The notes under the pieces were generated by a model that did no database searches, was not told where the DNA came from, and saw nothing but the letters and a program-made list of their open reading frames with translations. Shown here in pieces: positions 1,632 to 44,313 of a stretch of DNA of 64,000 bases. The translations under genes were made by a program, and so were the position numbers. Origin of the DNA: Chloroflexota bacterium (GTDB lineage Bacteria > Chloroflexota > Anaerolineae > Anaerolineales > Villigracilaceae); the NCBI GenBank assembly GCA_016191845.1, contig JACPVF010000007.1:124001-188000 (forward strand). The letters are read 5' to 3'. The stretch's first letter is position 1. The number at the start of each line of letters is the position of its first letter.

Positions 1632-3071
1632 TATCTTTTGCAAAATCGTCAAAATAAACTCCGCCGTGCGTTGACCTGAGGTGGCGTCGGTGAAGGTGAT
1701 CTCGTCTTCCACGAATTTGCAGCGTTCCTGTGCGTCGACGGTGTGGTCTTTCAGGTAGAGATTCAGCGCATCGCGCAGTTCGGCCTCATCCTTGGCGACA
1801 CGTCCCGCTTTGGCGCGGCGGAAACGCTGATGGGTGGGCCAGTCGCCGATCTCCTTGAGGGACAGGGAAAACTTGTTCGGTTTGTTCCAGCCGCCAGGGA
1901 CGTCGATGGTGGCGGCGATCATGGGCGTGTCGTGGACAGCGGTCTCGACCAGCATGGTCGAGTAGACCGTCACCAGCACGTCCGAGTAAGCCATCATCGA
2001 CGACTTCTCGTCCATGTCCTCGCCGCCGTAGTAGCCGAGCGAGCCGCCCATCGCCACAGGCTGGACGACATGCACATGCGGATATTTCTTCTCCAGCTCG
2101 AAGACCTGAGCGCGTTCGTCGGCGAAGATCTTCGGCTTGTCTTGAAAGTGACTCGGGTGCAGGCGGATCAACAATTGCGACGGTTCGGCCAACATATCAG
2201 ACGAGACCAGCTTCGCCAGCGCCTCGATGTTCGGGTAGTTCGGCGCAAAGTGGACGAAGCTGCTGGCGTACGAGATCAGCTTGCGGTTCGGGTCGAGGCC
2301 GTGCAGCTTGAAATACTCGTCGCGCGGCATGAGCCATTGCTTGCGGAAATATCCATCGTAGGACGGGATGCCGCCGATGTTGACCTGCTCGGGCTTCCAA
2401 TCCGAGCCGTGGACGAGTTCGTCCTTTTGGAGCTGCGACCAGCAGGTGGCCCACTGGACATCCGCGCCCGAGACGTTGTAGCTGGACGAATTGTCCCAGC
2501 CGACGATGACGGTCATGTTCGGGATGCCCCTTTGGGCGGATTCGCGCAGCAGGTAGCGGTCCATGCGCCAGCCAGGGGTGGAGGCGATGACCAGGTCGGG
2601 CTGGTATTTGTCGAAGAGGTCAGCGTACAGATTGGGCGTGAAGCGCTTCTGGATCTGTACCAGCCATTTGCGGGCGAAGGAAAAATTCCGCAGCAGGAGG
2701 ATCATCAGCGCGGAGGGGATCCACACTCCCAGGCGGAACTTCCAGCCGTTCTCGGCCCACACCTCCCAGATGTGACTGTCCATCGCCTCGGTGTTGATAC
2801 GGCGCGAGCCGCCGACGCGGCGCAAATAGCCGAGCAGCCACTGCATACGCGGCTGGACCTTCTTGGCGTAGGCATCCGCCTGTTTGAGGCGCAGCCCTTC
2901 GAAGGTCAGGCCAGGTTGGGCGAAACGCGCCGCGATCTTGTCCCTGGTTTCGTCGTCGGTGAGGACGACGACTTCGACGCCCGCTTTCAGCAGCGTCGGG
3001 ACGACGTCGCTTTGCAGGAAGTAGATGATTGCCATGCCGTGGTCGGCGGAGATGAAAATGTGTTTGGTCAT
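1605..3071 (-). CDS. GT-B type surface-carbohydrate glycosyltransferase
   Basis: A 488-residue protein with an N-terminal Rossmann-like half (HIFISADHGMAIIYFL, then PTLLKAGVEVVVLTDD) and a C-terminal half containing LLIRLHPSHF and a donor-site-like stretch (SDVLVTVYSTMLVETAVHDTPMIA). This layout is typical of GT-B enzymes near the CDP-glycerol glycerophosphotransferase and capsule KpsS/KpsC families. It resembles in plan the protein at 15418-17040, so the cluster may carry two related enzymes. Donor and acceptor cannot be read from sequence. Confidence 0.6.
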   Translation of the reverse strand: MTKHIFISADHGMAIIYFLQSDVVPTLLKAGVEVVVLTDDETRDKIAARFAQPGLTFEGLRLKQADAYAKKVQPRMQWLLGYLRRVGGSRRINTEAMDSHIWEVWAENGWKFRLGVWIPSALMILLLRNFSFARKWLVQIQKRFTPNLYADLFDKYQPDLVIASTPGWRMDRYLLRESAQRGIPNMTVIVGWDNSSSYNVSGADVQWATCWSQLQKDELVHGSDWKPEQVNIGGIPSYDGYFRKQWLMPRDEYFKLHGLDPNRKLISYASSFVHFAPNYPNIEALAKLVSSDMLAEPSQLLIRLHPSHFQDKPKIFADERAQVFELEKKYPHVHVVQPVAMGGSLGYYGGEDMDEKSSMMAYSDVLVTVYSTMLVETAVHDTPMIAATIDVPGGWNKPNKFSLSLKEIGDWPTHQRFRRAKAGRVAKDEAELRDALNLYLKDHTVDAQERCKFVEDEITFTDATSGQRTAEFILTILQKINREGRGER

Positions 3072-3083
3072 AAATCCTTTTAT

Positions 3084-3197
3084 ATGTCACACCTGCACTT
3101 GCGTACGGCGCAAGTGCTGCGAGCGCATAGCAATCTCATACTTTGATAGTAATGCGAGATTCCTTCGTCGCGCCGTTGGCACTCCTCGCAGTGACAT
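3084..3197. repeat. Palindromic intergenic repeat (TGTCATTGCGAGG family), copy 1
   Basis: A divergent copy that begins ATGTCAC and ends with the complementary CGCAGTGACAT. Internal arms AGCAATCTCA and TGCGAGATTCCTTCG pair with each other. The same architecture is seen at 5811, 10426, 20332, 41621 and 58037. Confidence 0.7.
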
Positions 3198-3289
3198 CAG
3201 GTGCCGTAGTCATATAGTTCAATTGTTTTATAAGTTAGATAATACAGCACATTATTCATGCGCTGTAAATGATATATCTGTTTTGAAAT

Positions 3290-3826
3290 TCAACCCATCT
3301 TCCACTCTATCCGCTTTACACGATCCTTCATAGAAGGCCAAGAGAGAATACAAATAAACAAAAACAAGATGGCGCCATAGATGGAAGGATAAATTAAAAT
3401 CACTTCAAACAGTCTTGCATTAAGAACATATAAACCCCAATCAGTAGAGGAAACATGCCACAATGTCAGAAAAACACCAAGCGAAACCCTAAATAGATCG
3501 CCCAATAAAAGTATTCTGACAAACCAATGTTTAAAAATAGAACGACGTAAAACCAAAATGAATGCGATTAATATCACTGATGACAACAAGGAAAACGCAA
3601 TATACCTAAAGCTAGAGTCAAAATAGAACTGATGACTATCTGACAACATTGTACTGGGTAAGATTCTTACAAGAATTATCGGAAACCACCAATCAAGAAA
3701 TGGTTTTAAAGTAAAAATGCCTGCTAAAAGACTTAAAGGCTCTTTCAAGAGAATAGCTATGACAATCAATAACATTCCAATAAGATAAGGTAATCCAATA
3801 AAAAGAAATATTCCTAGCAGCTGCAT
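3290..3826 (-). CDS. Unrecognised polytopic membrane protein
   Basis: A 178-residue hydrophobic protein with about four membrane segments (near residues 5-27, 72-92, 104-121 and 135-163). No known motif was recognised. It is much more AT-rich than the surrounding glycosyltransferase genes, which suggests horizontal acquisition. It lies 6 nt from the next upstream gene (a GT2 at 3833) on the same strand. Function unknown. Confidence 0.5.
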   Translation of the reverse strand: MQLLGIFLFIGLPYLIGMLLIVIAILLKEPLSLLAGIFTLKPFLDWWFPIILVRILPSTMLSDSHQFYFDSSFRYIAFSLLSSVILIAFILVLRRSIFKHWFVRILLLGDLFRVSLGVFLTLWHVSSTDWGLYVLNARLFEVILIYPSIYGAILFLFICILSWPSMKDRVKRIEWKMG

Positions 3827-3832
3827 ATAACC

Positions 3833-4852
3833 TCAAGAATAATACCAACTGAATATCTTGTTATACACCGCCAGCAAAGCCTTCTTGATCGGCGCCAGGT
3901 CCAGCATACGGCGCGCGAAGCCTTTTTTCTTTTTACTTTTTACTTTTCCACTATCCTTCAACTCCCCTCTCAAATATCCCAGCGTATTCGACATATTCAT
4001 CGCCAGCGGGTCGGAGACCATCAGGCGCAGCAGGCCCGCATCGTTCATACGCTTGTCCAACTGACGCACCTGTCCCATGGGTTTGTCCATGTCGAAGGGC
4101 AGGAATTGCTGGAGCGTGGACTTATAGGCTGTGAACTGCCAATGCGACGCGCCCGCGAAAGCGACCACGCCCTTCGACTGCGCTCCCTCGGCTGGCTCTC
4201 GGTCGCTCCGCTCCCCCTGCGGGGACTTCGCAGGACGATAAGTAATTCTCCAATCTCTAGTCTCTGCATAGACCTTTTTATTCTCCTCCTCGGTCTGCCC
4301 GAGCGAGAGGTTGAATTCGAGGAAGGTCTCCCACGGGATGAACTGGCCCTCGTCGAGGGTTGCGTTGTCCCGTGCCCACTTCAGGGTCGACTCGTAGAAT
4401 TCGGGCGGGGTGCGGAACGGTCGAGCGGTCACCATGCCCACGTTCGGGAAGGTTTCGAGGATCTCGACCGAGCGCTTGAGCCAGTTCGGCGAGAACAGCA
4501 CGTCGCTGTCGGTGTAGGCGATGATCTCACCAGGCGCGCCCGTCAGCATCACATTCCACGCACCGCCCTTGCCCATGTTCTTCTCCGACAGGATCAGATA
4601 CTGGATGCGCCCCTCCTCTTTTTCCTGCACGAGAAAATCGCGGACCTCGGGGCAGGACCCGTTATCGAAGACCATCAGGTCGAAGGGCAGGCCTGCATCC
4701 TTGCGCATGGATTCGAGGGAGACCTTCAGCACGTCGAGGGTCTCGGCATAGAATCCGCTCAGGAAGGGGATGTAATTCAGCAACGCAACCGTGATCCGCT
4801 CGGGGCGGGCCACGTCTTTGACGAACTTGGCGGGGTTTTGGCCTTTACGCAT
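3833..4852 (-). CDS. Family 2 glycosyltransferase with an internal repeat-derived insert
   Basis: A 339-residue GT-A enzyme. The N-terminal nucleotide-sugar fold begins RITVALLNYI, and the metal-binding DxD motif is seen as IIAYTDSDVLFSPNWL near residue 118, after KNMGKGGAWN. About residues 210-228 (RPAKSPQGERSDREPAEGAQ) are encoded by a palindromic sequence containing CTTCGACTGCGCTC (4172-4185). The peptide looks like an inserted repeat in an otherwise normal family fold. The reading frame stays open. Sugar specificity is unknown. Confidence 0.75.
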   Translation of the reverse strand: MRKGQNPAKFVKDVARPERITVALLNYIPFLSGFYAETLDVLKVSLESMRKDAGLPFDLMVFDNGSCPEVRDFLVQEKEEGRIQYLILSEKNMGKGGAWNVMLTGAPGEIIAYTDSDVLFSPNWLKRSVEILETFPNVGMVTARPFRTPPEFYESTLKWARDNATLDEGQFIPWETFLEFNLSLGQTEEENKKVYAETRDWRITYRPAKSPQGERSDREPAEGAQSKGVVAFAGASHWQFTAYKSTLQQFLPFDMDKPMGQVRQLDKRMNDAGLLRLMVSDPLAMNMSNTLGYLRGELKDSGKVKSKKKKGFARRMLDLAPIKKALLAVYNKIFSWYYS

Positions 4853-4868
4853 TTTCGTTCCTTGTAGG

Positions 4869-4886
4869 GGCGGACGGCCGTCCGCC
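4869..4886. repeat. Perfect 18-bp GC-rich palindrome
   Basis: GGCGGACGG joined directly to its complement CCGTCCGCC in the 36-nt gap between two minus-strand genes, preceded by TGTAGGGG. The TAGGGGC lead-in is shared with the larger inverted repeat at 15353-15412. No T-run follows, so a terminator role is uncertain. Confidence 0.5.
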
Positions 4887-4888
4887 TG

Positions 4889-5794
4889 TTATTTGAATAA
4901 TTTCTTAAATCGTTTCTTCCAGCGCTTCGGGCGCGCGATCTCTTCGACGGCGTTCTCGGGCAGGAAGAAAAAGATGGCACGCAGGAATAACTCAATTTTG
5001 CGCATGAAGCGCAGATAGGTTAGCTGCGGGCGGGCAAGTGTACCACCGACCAGTCGATGGGTTGAGTCGAGGATGGTGTAGCGGATGTTGGCCTGTCCGC
5101 CCGCGAGACGGATATTCTCGTTCGTGTCGGGATGCTCGTAATGCGGCTTGCCGCCAGGCAGGTGGCTGTAATCGTGGTTCTGATGCACGATCATCACCGA
5201 CGGCGTGCAGTCGATGACGGGCCAGCCTTCCCTGCGCGCCTTGTAGATCATCCAGTTGTCCCAGCCCGCGCGGCCGATGATGAAGTCGGGGATGTCGGCG
5301 TAGCAGGATTTCGGGAAGAGGAAGAAGTCACTACCCGCGGGACGGTGGAGGTTGTTTTGACCGTGGACGGCGGACCGTAGACGGTCCTGCCAGCCCTCGG
5401 AGAAATCGATCGGGGCGGTGATGTCGTAATCCCAGCGCTGGCTGAGCAGGACAAATCTATCCTTGATCTTTTTCACCTGTCTGGCCGCCTCGACGAAATC
5501 GGGCAGGAGGATCATGTCCGCGTTGATGATGCACAGCAGGTCGCTGGTGGAGTGTTCACGCGCCAGTTGGAACATGGACGAGATCAACGGTGTGCCGTTC
5601 GCATTGCGCGCCACGTGCGGAATGTGTCTCACCCCGAGTTCGTGCGCGGCCTCGGCCAGTCCATCTTCCTCGCCCAACAGGATGACTTCCACATCTGGCA
5701 ACAGCGTCCACGATTTGATCGCGTTGCGCTGAATCATTGCGATGTGCGGATTGGTGAAGGGCTTGGGGGCGGAGAAAAGGGTAATTAGAGACAT
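4889..5794 (-). CDS. GT-A-like glycosyltransferase
   Basis: A 301-residue protein starting MSLITLFSAPKPF. The fold pattern is that of a GT-A enzyme: DVEVILLGEEDG, then LLCIINADMILLPDFV, where the usual DxD is NADM. A later conserved stretch is RAGWDNWMIYKARREGWPVID. The ATG at 5794 was chosen over an upstream in-frame ATG at 5812, because the latter starts inside the palindromic repeat at 5811. The C-terminus is very basic, which may allow peripheral membrane binding. Neighbours are other glycosyltransferases. Confidence 0.6.
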   Translation of the reverse strand: MSLITLFSAPKPFTNPHIAMIQRNAIKSWTLLPDVEVILLGEEDGLAEAAHELGVRHIPHVARNANGTPLISSMFQLAREHSTSDLLCIINADMILLPDFVEAARQVKKIKDRFVLLSQRWDYDITAPIDFSEGWQDRLRSAVHGQNNLHRPAGSDFFLFPKSCYADIPDFIIGRAGWDNWMIYKARREGWPVIDCTPSVMIVHQNHDYSHLPGGKPHYEHPDTNENIRLAGGQANIRYTILDSTHRLVGGTLARPQLTYLRFMRKIELFLRAIFFFLPENAVEEIARPKRWKKRFKKLFK

Positions 5795-10425: not shown

Positions 10426-10517
10426 ATGTCGTTGCGAGGAGGCCAAAGGCCGACGAAGCAACCTCATGGAATACGTAGATTGCTTCGCCGCCAAAGAACG
10501 GCGGCTCGCAATGACAT
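10426..10517. repeat. Palindromic intergenic repeat (TGTCATTGCGAGG family), copy 3
   Basis: ATGTCGTTGCGAGG at one end and CTCGCAATGACAT at the other. Inner arms GACGAAGCAACCTC and GATTGCTTCG. The right end reaches the stop codon of the neuB-like gene. Confidence 0.85.
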
Positions 10518-11587
10518 CAATTTCCCAGATCCGTCCAGCGCAATTCCTTACCAAGCGGCATATCCATCAACGCCTTCGTGCCGAGCACGTTCTCGATCTG
10601 GTCGGGCTTGATGGCGCCGGGGGTGGCGGGACGCAGCACATCGATCATGTCGCGGGTGAAGGTCTCACCCGCTTTGATGTCGCGCGAGGCGCGCAGGCAG
10701 CGGCGCTGCACGACGGCGGTGTCCACTTCGTTCTCGGCGATGAACTTGTCCGCCGAACCGAGCGCGCGCTCGACCAGGCGCGTCTCCTCGACCATCTTCG
10801 CCCAGGTATCGGGATTCATGGCGAACTTGTGGTCGGGACCTTCGCGATCGTTGCTGTCGGTGAAGTGGCGCTCGATGACGCGCGCGCCCAACGTCACAGC
10901 CGCGATGACAGGCGAGACGGCATGGGTATGGTCGGAGAGACCCAGGATCACATCAGGGAACATGCTGGCGTAGGTCTTCAGCACGTTGATGTGCAGGTGG
11001 TCGTAATTCTTCGGGCTGGCGGTGTAGTTGGTATTGCACTGCATCAGCACCAGTTGCTTGTTGATCTTGAGGATGGCATGCACGGCCTTCTGCACCTCGC
11101 CGATGGTCGAAGCACCCGTGGCGATGAAGAACGGCTTGCCCTTGGAGGCCATGCGCTCCAGCGCCTCGATCCAGTCGATCTCGCCCGAGCCAGCTTTGTA
11201 GACTTCCACATACTGATCGAGAAAGTCGATGGCCTCGAAGTCGTAGGGCGAGGAGAAATAATCGATGCCGACCTTGTCGCATTCTTCCTTCAAAATGGTG
11301 GACCACTCGAACGGGATGGACGCGCCCTTGTAGACCTCGAACACCGACTTCTTCCAGGCCGCCTGATGCGAGACCTGCCCGCCGCTCATGGCCTTGAAGC
11401 CGTAATCCGAGACGATCTTGGGGGCGTCGAAATTCTGGAACTTGGCCGCATCCGCGCCTGCGTCCTTCGCCAGGCGGATGAGCTGCTTCGCGCGTTCCAG
11501 GTCGCCGTCGTGGTTGGCGGCGATGTCCGCGATGAAGTAGGTGGGATGGTTCAGGCCGATGGTGTGTTTGCCGAATTTGATGTCCAT
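10517..11587 (-). CDS. N-acetylneuraminate synthase family protein (NeuB/PseI-like)
   Basis: Condenses phosphoenolpyruvate with a hexosamine derivative to give a nine-carbon acid. The 356-residue protein has the NeuB TIM barrel (FIADIAANHDGDLERAKQLI; KAGSGEIDWIEAL; FFIATGASTIGEVQKAV; ILGLSDHTHAVSP; ERHFTDSNDREGPDHKFAM) and a C-terminal SAF antifreeze-like domain (VVQRRCLRASRDIKAGE). The start at 11587 is fixed by GGAGGAACCATG. An upstream open extension is rejected because it crosses the DnaA-box array. Whether it makes sialic, legionaminic or pseudaminic acid cannot be decided. Confidence 0.88.
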   Translation of the reverse strand: MDIKFGKHTIGLNHPTYFIADIAANHDGDLERAKQLIRLAKDAGADAAKFQNFDAPKIVSDYGFKAMSGGQVSHQAAWKKSVFEVYKGASIPFEWSTILKEECDKVGIDYFSSPYDFEAIDFLDQYVEVYKAGSGEIDWIEALERMASKGKPFFIATGASTIGEVQKAVHAILKINKQLVLMQCNTNYTASPKNYDHLHINVLKTYASMFPDVILGLSDHTHAVSPVIAAVTLGARVIERHFTDSNDREGPDHKFAMNPDTWAKMVEETRLVERALGSADKFIAENEVDTAVVQRRCLRASRDIKAGETFTRDMIDVLRPATPGAIKPDQIENVLGTKALMDMPLGKELRWTDLGN

Positions 11588-11601
11588 GGTTCCTCCAAAA
11601 T

Positions 11602-11807
11602 TGTGGAAAAAGTGAGTCAAACCTGTGGATAACTGGAGTCCTTGCTGTGGATAAGCAGCGTGGCGTAACCAGGAATTTTGCGTTATTTTTGTTGATAACT
11701 TCGGATTTTCTGTGGATAACCCTGCTGGAACTGTGTATAAAACTGGTCGAGTCCTGTGGAAAAGCGGGGGAGAGACTCGCCCAAATCGGTGGATAACCTG
11801 TGGGTAG
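11602..11807 (-). promoter_or_regulatory. Array of phased DnaA-box-like sites
   Basis: Read on the plus strand as TGTGGATAA (TTATCCACA on the minus strand). Perfect copies start at 11624, 11646 and 11711. One-mismatch copies start at 11602, 11690, 11732, 11755 and 11788, and a weaker copy starts at 11799. All point the same way. Most start-to-start distances are 21-23 bp, or 44, which is about two helical turns. Boxes from 11690 onward lie inside the 3' end of the rmlD-like gene, and those at 11602-11654 lie in the gap before neuB. The consensus is the bacterial DnaA box. No dnaA or dnaN gene is in the window, so a DnaA-titration or regulatory site is as likely as an origin. Confidence 0.6.
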
Positions 11808-12603
11808 AAAGCCACAGGTTGGGGGCGCGGCGCGCCGTCAGGCTGGATTCCAGCACCGACTTGGGCGTGATCAGCCCATCAGCCAGACCAAACTTGCGGG
11901 CCACCTCCACCCCGAACTGATACTTGCTCATGGCCTGCGCTCCAACCACGTGATACAGGCCGCTCAGTCCGCGCGCGAGCATTTTCACCAGCAGGCGGGC
12001 CGTATCATTGACCAACATCGGGCAGAAGATGACATCCGTAAAGCCGCTGACATTCCTACCGAAAGACAGGTTGTTGTAGAAGAATTCCGCCAGGCTACGC
12101 TTTCCGCCCAGGCTCCAACCGTAGAAGTTGACCCGCGCCACAACCGCCTCGGGGTATTCGGACCCCACGGCCTGCTCCCCTTCCAATTTGGTTTGGGCGT
12201 ACACCCCCAGCGGATTCGGCTTGTCGTCTTCGTTGTAGTAGCCATGCTTCTGTCCGTCGAAGACCGCGTCAGTGGAGATGTGCGCCAGCCGAATGCCGCG
12301 CGCATTGCAGGCGCGGGCCAGTTGCGCGGGCAGGTCCGCGTTGAGGCGGCGGGCCAGGCTCGGGTTGGCTTCGCAGGCTTCGAGGTCCGCCAGCGCCGCA
12401 CAGTGGATGACCGCCTCGGGGCGGGCCTCGTCGAGGACAGACTCCACCGCCCCATCCGCCAGCAGGTCCGCTCGCACGACCTGGAACGGGGCCTGCGGCG
12501 ACAACTTTCCGCGATCCACCGCCACCACCTCGTGCGCCGACATGGCTTCGAGCGCCAGGTTGATTCCGAGCAGTCCGCTTGCGCCAGTGACGAGAAGTTT
12601 CAT
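11683..12603 (-). CDS. dTDP-4-dehydrorhamnose reductase-like SDR (RmlD superfamily)
   Basis: A 306-residue NAD(P)-dependent short-chain dehydrogenase. It has the Rossmann signature LLVTGASGLLG and the catalytic Y-x3-K in YAQTKLEGEQA, with STDAVFDG upstream as the Ser/Thr element. It is of RmlD type, reducing a 4-keto sugar nucleotide. The start at 12603 follows GGAGAATTTC. The last ~35 residues (from LSTHRLSTDLG to the end) are encoded by DnaA-box-like repeats, giving repeated LST, YPQ and YQQ. They look like an added tail rather than family core. Confidence 0.75.
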   Translation of the reverse strand: MKLLVTGASGLLGINLALEAMSAHEVVAVDRGKLSPQAPFQVVRADLLADGAVESVLDEARPEAVIHCAALADLEACEANPSLARRLNADLPAQLARACNARGIRLAHISTDAVFDGQKHGYYNEDDKPNPLGVYAQTKLEGEQAVGSEYPEAVVARVNFYGWSLGGKRSLAEFFYNNLSFGRNVSGFTDVIFCPMLVNDTARLLVKMLARGLSGLYHVVGAQAMSKYQFGVEVARKFGLADGLITPKSVLESSLTARRAPNLWLSTHRLSTDLGESLPRFSTGLDQFYTQFQQGYPQKIRSYQQK

Positions 12604-12613
12604 GAAATTCTCC

Positions 12614-12646
12614 AAACCCTAAAGGTCTCGGAGACCTTTAGGGTTT
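12614..12646. repeat. Perfect inverted repeat with one-base centre
   Basis: Arms AAACCCTAAAGGTCTC and its exact complement are separated by a single G, in the gap between the PseB-like and RmlD-like genes. It could form a hairpin in RNA from either strand. It belongs to a set of such one-base-centre palindromes (13679, 23457, 27762 and 47802). Confidence 0.7.
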
Positions 12647-12650
12647 TATT

Positions 12651-13661
12651 CTACCCTTCTAATTTGCCCTGCGCGTACAATTCCTCGAACGGCGCAATGA
12701 ACTTCTGGATGCCTTCAAGGTCGAGCCATTCACTGTTGTTGTCGCTCGAATAATGGAATCCCTCGGGCAGCGTCCTGCCCTTGGATTGCCACGAATAACC
12801 GAACCAGATCGCCTCAGCGGGCTGGACCACGAACATGCGCTCCAATTCGATGGTGTGACGGGCCTCGTCCTCGGAGATGAGCGCCTCGTGCAGTTTCTCG
12901 CCCGGGCGAATGCCGATGACCTTGATCTCGGCCTGCGGCGCGATGGCGCGCGCCAGGTCCATGACCGTGGTGCTGGGGATCTTGGGGACGAAGACCTCGC
13001 CGCCCTCCATCTGCTCGATGCAGTCGATGACGAAGCGCACGCCCTGCTCGAGCGAGAGCCAGAAGCGGGTCATGCGGTCGTCAGTGACGGTGATCTGTCC
13101 GTTGCCGCGCTGTTTGAGGAAGAGCGGCACGACCGATCCGCGCGAACCGACCACGTTGCCGTAGCGGACACATGAATAGCGGGTGGACGACCCCGCGGCA
13201 TAAGCGTTGCTCTGGATGGTCAACTTCTCGGCAGCCAGTTTGGTCGCGCCGTACAGGTTGGCGGGACTGACGGCCTTGTCGGTGCTGATGGTCATCACCT
13301 TCTTGACGCCCGCATCCAGGGCGGCCTCGAGCACGTTGCTGGTGCCCATGATGTTGGTCTTGACGGCCTCCATCGGGTTGTACTCGCAGGCGGGCACCTG
13401 CTTGAGCGCCGCCGCATGGACAACGATGTCCACGCCGTGCATGGCGCGCAGCAGACGCTCGCGGTCGCGGATATCGCCGATGAAATAGCGCAGGCGCGGA
13501 TCGTTATATCCGCCGACCTGCATCTCATGCTGCTTCAACTCGTCGCGGCTGAAGATGATGATCTTCTTCGGCTGCTTCTCTTCCAGCAGGATCTTGGTGA
13601 ATTTCTTGCCGAACGAACCCGTGCCGCCCGTGACGAGCACGACTTGATTTTTCCAGTCCAT
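12651..13661 (-). CDS. pseB: UDP-GlcNAc 4,6-dehydratase, inverting (PseB-like)
   Basis: A 336-residue SDR of the FlaA1/PseB group. It has LVTGGTGSFGKKFTKILLEE for NAD(P), IGDIRDRERLLRAM, TISTDKAVSPANLYGATKLAAEKL with the Tyr/Lys pair, and the family segment RMTRFWLSLEQGVRFV. It would convert UDP-GlcNAc to the 4-keto-6-deoxy sugar, the first step of pseudaminic-type or related sugars. The next enzyme, an aminotransferase (PseC), is not in the window. Length and motifs match the short, soluble PseB form rather than membrane-bound CapD. Confidence 0.85.
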   Translation of the reverse strand: MDWKNQVVLVTGGTGSFGKKFTKILLEEKQPKKIIIFSRDELKQHEMQVGGYNDPRLRYFIGDIRDRERLLRAMHGVDIVVHAAALKQVPACEYNPMEAVKTNIMGTSNVLEAALDAGVKKVMTISTDKAVSPANLYGATKLAAEKLTIQSNAYAAGSSTRYSCVRYGNVVGSRGSVVPLFLKQRGNGQITVTDDRMTRFWLSLEQGVRFVIDCIEQMEGGEVFVPKIPSTTVMDLARAIAPQAEIKVIGIRPGEKLHEALISEDEARHTIELERMFVVQPAEAIWFGYSWQSKGRTLPEGFHYSSDNNSEWLDLEGIQKFIAPFEELYAQGKLEG

Positions 13662-44119: not shown

Positions 44120-44187
44120 GTTGGGGGCCAAACATCGCACGATACGGTCACGATACGGCTGGAAGTGAATGAGCAGCGGGGGAATCG

Positions 44188-44313
44188 AACCCATCCACGG
44201 CTGGATCAAACCCAGCCAGGGCTCAGGTCGATCCGTCCACGGCGGGACAAAACCCAGCCTGGGATGGATCAAATCCATCCATCGGTAGATAAAACCCATC
44301 CACGGAGGAGTTT
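44188..44313. repeat. Six tandem 21-bp units
   Basis: Units start at 44188, 44209, 44230, 44251, 44272 and 44293, each exactly 21 bases. The consensus is AACCCATCCACGG followed by a variable base and GGATCA. Similarity is lower in the middle. Both a plus and a minus frame stay open through the array as degenerate seven-residue repeats. The 387-base gap between genes at 44120-44506 otherwise holds nothing I recognise. Confidence 0.75.

Follow-up and report, generated by a model that had tools for sequence, protein, structure and literature searches.

An ordered array of DnaA boxes at the 3' end of an RmlD-like sugar-nucleotide reductase gene (hereafter the SDR gene and the SDR array) is interpreted here, with moderate confidence, as a non-initiating DnaA-binding locus outside oriC. 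A DnaA control locus is the best reading because the boxes have the geometry of those at oriC without a DnaA-trio, because the array is conserved at the level of the DNA, and because the host gene differs between families. The array lies in the 64,000-nucleotide stretch of DNA that was analysed (the window, C8:124001-188000 of genome G000, which comprises 4.63 Mb in 18 contigs). Its sites and the flanking genes are:

11602..11807, minus strand: whole DnaA-box array; the boxes read TTATCCACA on the minus strand, which is the operon coding strand
11788..11796, minus strand: box at -114 from the SDR stop, TTATCCACC, codons L-S-T
11755..11763, minus strand: box at -81 from the SDR stop, TTTTCCACA, codons F-S-T
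11732..11740, minus strand: box at -58 from the SDR stop, TTATACACA, codons F-Y-T-Q
11711..11719, minus strand: core box at -37 from the SDR stop, exact TTATCCACA, codons G-Y-P-Q
11690..11698, minus strand: box at -16 from the SDR stop, TTATCAACA, codons S-Y-Q-Q
11646..11654, minus strand: spacer box 1, exact TTATCCACA
11624..11632, minus strand: spacer box 2, exact TTATCCACA
11602..11610, minus strand: spacer box 3, TTTTCCACA, immediately ahead of the NeuB-like start
12651..13661, minus strand: PseB-type UDP-GlcNAc 4,6-dehydratase, the upstream gene on the same strand (TIGR03589 above cut-off)
11683..12615, minus strand: RmlD-like sugar-nucleotide reductase, SDR (TIGR01214 below cut-off; PF04321, 203 bits)
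10517..11587, minus strand: NeuB-like protein of the sialic/pseudaminic acid synthase family, the downstream gene (PF03102 and PF08666; under both equivalog cut-offs)

The first-pass annotation of the window had placed eight DnaA-box-like sites here, and all eight starts are where it put them: eight TTATCCACA-like sites on the minus strand, of which three are exact and five carry one mismatch, to which a ninth with two mismatches can be added at 11799. The successive steps are 22, 22, 44, 21, 21, 23 and 33 bp, so that the 21-23 and 44 bp steps of the earlier description stand and the final one needs correcting, since 33 bp corresponds to three helical turns rather than two or four. Eight of the 14 matches in the window (≤1 mismatch) are concentrated in 195 bp on a single strand, while shuffled versions of the window contain 8.9 ± 3.3 matches over its whole length and both strands, or by arithmetic about 0.014 per array-sized stretch. 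Chance clustering is thereby ruled out, and the suggestion of a helically phased array with an order beyond chance is supported. With eight sites, the SDR array has the DnaA-box cluster looked for in an oriC, and it is at the same time a DnaA-box cluster located outside oriC. Elsewhere in the window, positions 44184-44305 hold a tandem repeat with a 21-bp unit and 5.8 copies.

The array had been described as lying inside a polysaccharide operon, which is correct as far as it goes; what was overlooked is that five of the boxes (11690, 11711, 11732, 11755 and 11788) are within the coding 3' end of the SDR gene, with the other three (11602, 11624 and 11646) in the 95-bp spacer ahead of the NeuB-like ATG. 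The SDR protein, whose likely start (assessed by eye) is an ATG located 12 nt downstream of the listed TTG, ends in ...LSTHRLSTDLGESLPRFSTGLDQFYTQFQQGYPQKIRSYQQK, and the boxes occupy differing reading frames in this C-terminus. The surrounding minus-strand surface-sugar cluster contains the PseB-type dehydratase, the SDR, the NeuB-like synthase, a glycosyltransferase and others; the annotated neighbours are sugar and transport genes with none for replication, as the first-pass annotation had remarked. An inverted-repeat search of the window found none at the array. In four related loci (L094, L100, L123 and L127) an inverted repeat like GTAGG..AAATT..AATTT..CCTAC is visible by eye just past the SDR stop, between the coding and spacer boxes.

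Within G000, exact TTATCCACA occurs 27 times; three copies belong to the SDR array and four to a second array, located at C8:553111-553281. A search for pairs of the form TGTGGANAA-N9-15-TGTGGANAA without mismatch returns only these two arrays, and the reversed-pattern control returns 0 in all 41 genomes searched; allowing one mismatch yields one more pair in G000, at C4:52515. A dispersed genome-wide repeat is ruled out by the exact pair pattern, and the possibility that the same spaced repeats recur at many places, which had been singled out for checking, did not materialize.

The region around the second array (G000:C8:553041-553793, equivalent to L003 8041-8793) is likely the oriC, as its boxes run in both orientations and are accompanied by a DnaA-trio and an adjoining spoVS gene; dnaA itself is located not on C8 but on C12. 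A three-box array with 21/20-bp steps (≤2 mismatches) is present in 56 of 61 genomes of the family of the window (f1), and the oriC-type arrays of these genomes are made up of the same 21-bp box pairs as the SDR array. By tblastn, 16 of the 22 family genomes examined have spoVS close to the oriC-type array, and the gene was not found in the stretches of 1.8 to 10 kb examined around the array in G002, G005, G011, G014, G016 and G017. Two further arrangements are worth recording. In genome G001, contig C21 carries a pair of spoVS-linked oriC-type arrays separated by about 60 kb (L074 8964-9135 and L075 8232-8540), and in L353 (G027, family f4) trio-bearing box arrays flank a dnaA-like frame at 2978-5140 in the classic layout, as judged by eye. 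This last layout raises the possibility that oriC has moved off dnaA in the family of the window.

The DnaA-trio motif consists of a box followed by CTACTA. We scored it as a box (≤2 mismatches) with CTACTA within the next 12 nt, and found it in 26 of 35 oriC-type loci (the gap being 4 nt in 23 of the 26) vs. 2 of 87 SDR loci, the window locus not being among those two. The 35 loci were picked by their three-box array and not by skew, with L089 (G022) excluded as unclear. The same pattern occurs three times in 2.26 Mb of sampled sequence, in which one sampled stretch adjoins the G073 array. A one-mismatch version of the trio pattern missed G000, where the triplets after CTACTA differ, and its reversed control matched in 9 of 13 genomes, which is why we rely on exact matches. 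The TTATCAACA variant found at the -16 position also adjoins the DnaA-trio in the oriC loci L079 and L086.

Strand skew gives a second line of evidence on where replication starts. Contig C8 of G000, represented by 20 samples of 12 kb and L003, has no usable switch anywhere, so G009 and G073 were used instead. In the single contig of G009, 15 of the 18 samples between 110 and 500 kb have a negative T-A skew at fourfold sites and all 8 between 510 and 680 kb a positive one, which places the switch at the oriC-type array (505.6 kb); the SDR array at 150.5 kb is flanked by samples of -0.170 and -0.154, i.e., no change. The best split in a 40-sample survey of the whole G009 genome is approximately 0.55-2.4 Mb for T-A skew, 0.77-2.4 Mb for G-C skew and 0.66-2.75 Mb for gene strand, and since the latter two fall farther off, T-A skew alone points closely to the array at 0.506 Mb. 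In G073, with the SDR array at 3,677 kb and the oriC-type array at 3,905 kb, the skew is negative in 11 of the 14 samples preceding the oriC-type array and positive in 9 of the 11 following it, again without a change at the SDR array; this result is supporting rather than decisive, as the skew is noisy between 3.74 and 3.85 Mb and the coarse survey is weak.

These observations bear on whether the SDR array is itself a second or back-up replication origin. It has up to 11 boxes at some loci and the spacing of an oriC, which would suit such a role. The trio counts, the unchanged skew at the array in G009 and G073, and the lower peak AT content in 50 bp (median 0.68 at SDR loci and 0.66 at outgroup loci vs. 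0.76 at oriC-type loci, although in G000 itself the two arrays are close at 0.68 and 0.70) make an origin here very improbable. The SDR array was rejected as the origin on the trio counts and on the skew switch at the other array in G009, and with it the "unusual origin" proposed in the first-pass annotation.

With this in mind, we consider how widely the array is kept. The SDR gene was sought in the 61 family genomes and in named genomes (79 loci). A complete SDR 3' end is available for 49 family genomes; the 12 not counted comprise 9 with weak or no matches, 2 with partial genes (G023 and G076) and G072, in which the gene is near a contig edge. The 9 weak or missing host-gene matches may mean that the SDR locus is dispensable, with the assemblies being incomplete. 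Between -200 and +400 of the SDR stop, at least two same-strand boxes are found in 49 of 49 genes and at least three in 47 of 49 (G043 and G058 being the two genomes with 2), with a median of 4 and a maximum of 11 coding-strand boxes per gene and a total of 2 opposite-strand boxes over all 49. Close relatives thus retain the array rather than lose it, which answers the check on relatives that had been proposed. In 37 of the 49 genomes there is no box beyond the SDR stop and there are 2-6 coding boxes, and for this reason we regard the coding group (-114, -81 or -58, -37 and -16) as the constant part. The spacing is kept as well, with steps of 22, 44, 21, 21, 23 and 33 in the same-genus genome G001 and of 21, 23, 44, 21, 21, 23 and 33 in G008. 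One carrier of the array bears the name Candidatus Villigracilaceae (Anaerolineales), which may therefore be the family of the window, although other carriers go by names such as Brevefilum or Anaerolinea.

A search of an order-wide draw of genomes with the triplet TTATACACA-N12-TTATCCACA-N12-TTATCAACA (≤3 mismatches; control 0) gives one copy in each of 22 of 26 family genomes, and matches in 19 of 175 non-family genomes. Fifteen of these 19 are directly upstream of a DUF92 gene (f8 4, f9 6 and f14 5) and have no trio within the 4.6-10 kb examined; the other 4 (f13) are not at DUF92. Trio-less three-box arrays ahead of DUF92 in f8, f9 and f14 include L260 5126-5177, L261 4741-4806 and L338-L351, L261 (G037, f14) being a further array of this kind. 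By coordinates alone, DUF92 arrays are also assigned in G029 (f6), G032 (f9) and G035 (f12), as well as in G153, G119, G095, G167, G130, G160, G216 and G233 of f9 and f14; no trio occurs within 3 kb at the G032 array (L031). The family of the window has a DUF92 match in 58 of 61 genomes, and no 21-bp box pair was found at DUF92 in the four tested (G000, G009, G073 and G168). The distance from the DUF92 array to an exact trio site is 136 kb in G032 and 139 kb in G167, and that to the only other array is about 0.69 Mb in G216 and 2.0 Mb in G233, where the oriC call consists of a second box array with a one-mismatch trio match.

For comparison across greater distances we combined the family genomes with named loci of at least 58% identity into an ingroup of 87 and treated the other 29 loci, by identity alone, as the outgroup; two of the 79 named loci (L164 and L169) were removed because they break off within the gene, and ten duplicates were taken out of the joint set. 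Among the 77 complete named loci, 47 of the 48 with at least 58% identity (some of which duplicate family genomes) have three or more boxes and none is boxless. At 50-58% identity (n = 13) 2 have three or more and 9 have none, and below 50% (n = 16) none has three and 14 have none. Same-strand boxes occur in 6 of the 29 outgroup loci: 7 in L165, 4 in L166, 2 in L170, and 1 each in L174, L189 and L201.

An alternative that has to be weighed against these data is that DnaA acts at the array as a transcription regulator, blocking or switching transcription from the SDR gene into the NeuB-like gene and so tying surface-sugar synthesis to replication, in line with the cell-cycle control of glycan genes raised in the first-pass annotation. 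All boxes run along the direction of transcription and end between two operon genes, a fixed place in one operon and a co-orientation that are compatible with this role; the DUF92 arrays of other families are just upstream of a gene start, and 75 of the 87 ingroup loci have the NeuB-like gene downstream in the same orientation (in 11 of the 12 without it, the available sequence stops within 1.5 kb past the SDR stop). However, the distance from the SDR stop to NeuB varies from 8 to 1899 nt across loci while the coding boxes persist, and no sigma-70-like promoter or terminator was found in 11400-12000 by a scan limited to sigma-70-like promoters. Moreover, 23 of the 29 distant homologues are boxless and all 23 retain the NeuB-like gene 4-39 nt downstream, which means that the operon does not need the array. 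A role in transcription is the main rival to our reading, though the less likely of the two.

To judge whether the boxes are maintained on the DNA itself, synonymous codons were permuted within each gene 300 times, leaving protein and codon use unchanged. The last 165 nt of the 87 ingroup genes contain 316 boxes (≤1 mismatch) vs. 42.9 ± 6.1 expected, with a shuffle maximum of 60, and 105 exact boxes vs. 3.5 expected. With one gene per genus (n = 24) there are 91 vs. 10.8 expected (maximum 23). Related sequences are not independent, and we give no weight to exact probabilities. The remainder of the 87 genes holds 23 same-strand and 4 opposite-strand boxes in 62,031 nt. In the 29 outgroup genes the last 165 nt hold 8 boxes vs. 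2.3 expected (maximum 7), all of them in four genes (L166 4, L170 2, L165 1 and L174 1). The codon shuffles show that the box excess reflects selection on the DNA itself. Individual codons follow suit, in counts that leave out 7 of the 87 genes: TTA is used in 48 of 79 genes with the -114 box motif, compared with 5% of gene-body leucine codons, CCA in 74 of 78 GYPQ genes vs. a background of 12%, and AGT as well as the first CAA in 49 of 49 SYQQ genes. Past the SDR stop, where boxes are free of the constraint of the SDR protein, they are nonetheless phased: 117 spacings follow a 10.5-bp period with R of 0.90, with 21 (48 of 117), 22 (23), 23 (6), 32 (8) and 53 (8) among the values.

It could be argued that conserved protein sequence (LST, FSTG, FYTQ, GYPQ and SYQQ) combined with codon bias gives rise to the boxes incidentally, as five of them do fall in conserved codons and shuffled genes still yield some boxes. 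This is almost certainly not the explanation, given that the observed number exceeds that of every one of the 300 shuffles, that several of the favored codons are rare elsewhere in the gene, and that the phasing carries on beyond the stop. Another reading is that something else recognizes the repeat, be it a different regulator or, at the RNA level, a reader of a motif repeated in the mRNA from the coding strand. The strict strand bias of the boxes fits with such a reader, but the motif and its 21-bp spacing match the oriC-type arrays of the same genomes, and we judge it improbable.

The location of the array on the chromosome is relevant to what a DnaA control locus could do. The SDR array and an oriC-type array are on one contig in 12 array-bearing genomes and are 62-465 kb apart; proximity was scored only where a contig is shared, which biases these values to short distances. 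In the family, the distances are 417 kb (G000), 355 kb (G009), 228 kb (G073), 236 kb (G168), 155 kb (G056), 73 kb (G059), 62 kb (G067) and 107 kb (G007), and on the other shared contigs 198 kb (G077), 399 kb (G078), 465 kb (G079) and 375 kb (G080). The two loci are on separate contigs in G052, with a bound of approximately 508 kb and contig C19 extending at least 435 kb. By strand reading, the operon is co-directional with replication in 10 of the 12 genomes (the exceptions being G056 and G007). In boxless outgroup genomes the operon is 66 kb (G087) and 953 kb (G081) from the oriC-type array.

DnaA binding to the array would be expected from the identity of the boxes, their oriC-like spacing and the normal DNA-binding domain (PF08299, 98 bits) of the G000 DnaA, a protein of 448 aa (L001). 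In the mechanism we propose, DnaA would occupy 8 to 9 boxes that share one orientation and range in quality and that, being mostly two helical turns apart, would place it on one face of the DNA and allow it to oligomerize as at oriC. With no DnaA-trio adjoining the boxes, the complex should leave the DNA unopened, and it could instead withhold DnaA or alter its nucleotide state shortly after every initiation at oriC; the timing is suggested by the locus often being near the origin and hence duplicated early. As a class, the DnaA-titration or reactivation locus of the first-pass annotation is our best reading. Binding, titration or inactivation, and an effect on the timing of initiation are all steps that we infer, and the conservation of an array that is not an origin means that it probably helps to control when chromosome replication starts. 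The SDR would be an incidental host, its C-terminus and synonymous codons remodeled to carry the boxes.

A broader proposal is held more tentatively, as a possibility somewhat short of our main reading: that Anaerolineales have, besides oriC, a dedicated non-initiating DnaA-assembly array whose host gene switches between families (the RmlD-like end here; in three to five other families, the region ahead of DUF92), and that the C-terminus seen here was rewritten for the boxes, so that a single stretch serves at once as coding sequence and as replication-control element, possibly linking envelope-sugar genes to the cell cycle.

Among the papers listed for DnaA boxes or origins of Chloroflexi or Anaerolineae, no title or abstract opening names the array, and the same holds for the listed titles and abstract openings on DnaA boxes with sialic acid or in a synonymous or coding context, on spoVS with oriC, on datA-like loci and on the Chloroflexi DnaA-trio. 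The excerpts of the literature cited here describe extra-oriC control of DnaA in E. coli and B. subtilis. A family-wide coding array maintained by selection in Chloroflexota, together with an oriC identifiable on the same contig, points to extra-oriC DnaA sites as a wider device, and the families that carry the array at different genes with identical box geometry offer a comparative test. It also calls for caution, since clusters of perfect DnaA boxes may mislead origin prediction.

The oriC-type array of the same genomes has the same box and the same 21-bp pairs, and differs in that the one in G000 has both box orientations and a DnaA-trio and the one in G009 marks the skew switch. The DARS loci of E. 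coli have core boxes of mixed orientation plus IHF/Fis sites. The eight boxes of the SDR array are, in contrast, all on one strand; what it shares with DARS1 and DARS2, going by excerpts, is the presence of DnaA boxes outside oriC (PMC5010248, PMC4585315).

The nearest known systems would seem to be the DnaA-box clusters (DBCs) of B. subtilis and datA of E. coli. A 2012 paper by Okumura et al. reportedly calls the DBCs "oriC-proximal" in its title. The partial accounts at hand describe the DBCs, like the SDR array, as clusters of DnaA boxes outside oriC, and one of them reports early initiation on removal of all six, the effect being strong only if none is left (PMC5295017). The SDR array differs from them in being one locus with one orientation and mostly 21-23 bp steps, in being largely coding with a place conserved across the family, and in being known so far from its sequence. 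In an excerpt on B. subtilis, strong in vitro DnaA sites inside codV and rplB do not belong to the set that shows up readily in vivo (PMC4447404), and no in vivo site was detected at rplB, perhaps owing to transcription (PMC4447404). By analogy, masking in vivo could also take place at the SDR array. The likeness to datA, again from excerpts, is that of a non-initiating locus of DnaA boxes, with datA lying close to oriC and having five boxes in about 1 kb (PMC4585315, PMC5295017); datA is, however, non-coding and dependent on IHF, whereas the SDR array is largely in coding sequence (PMC4585315, PMC5295017 for datA).
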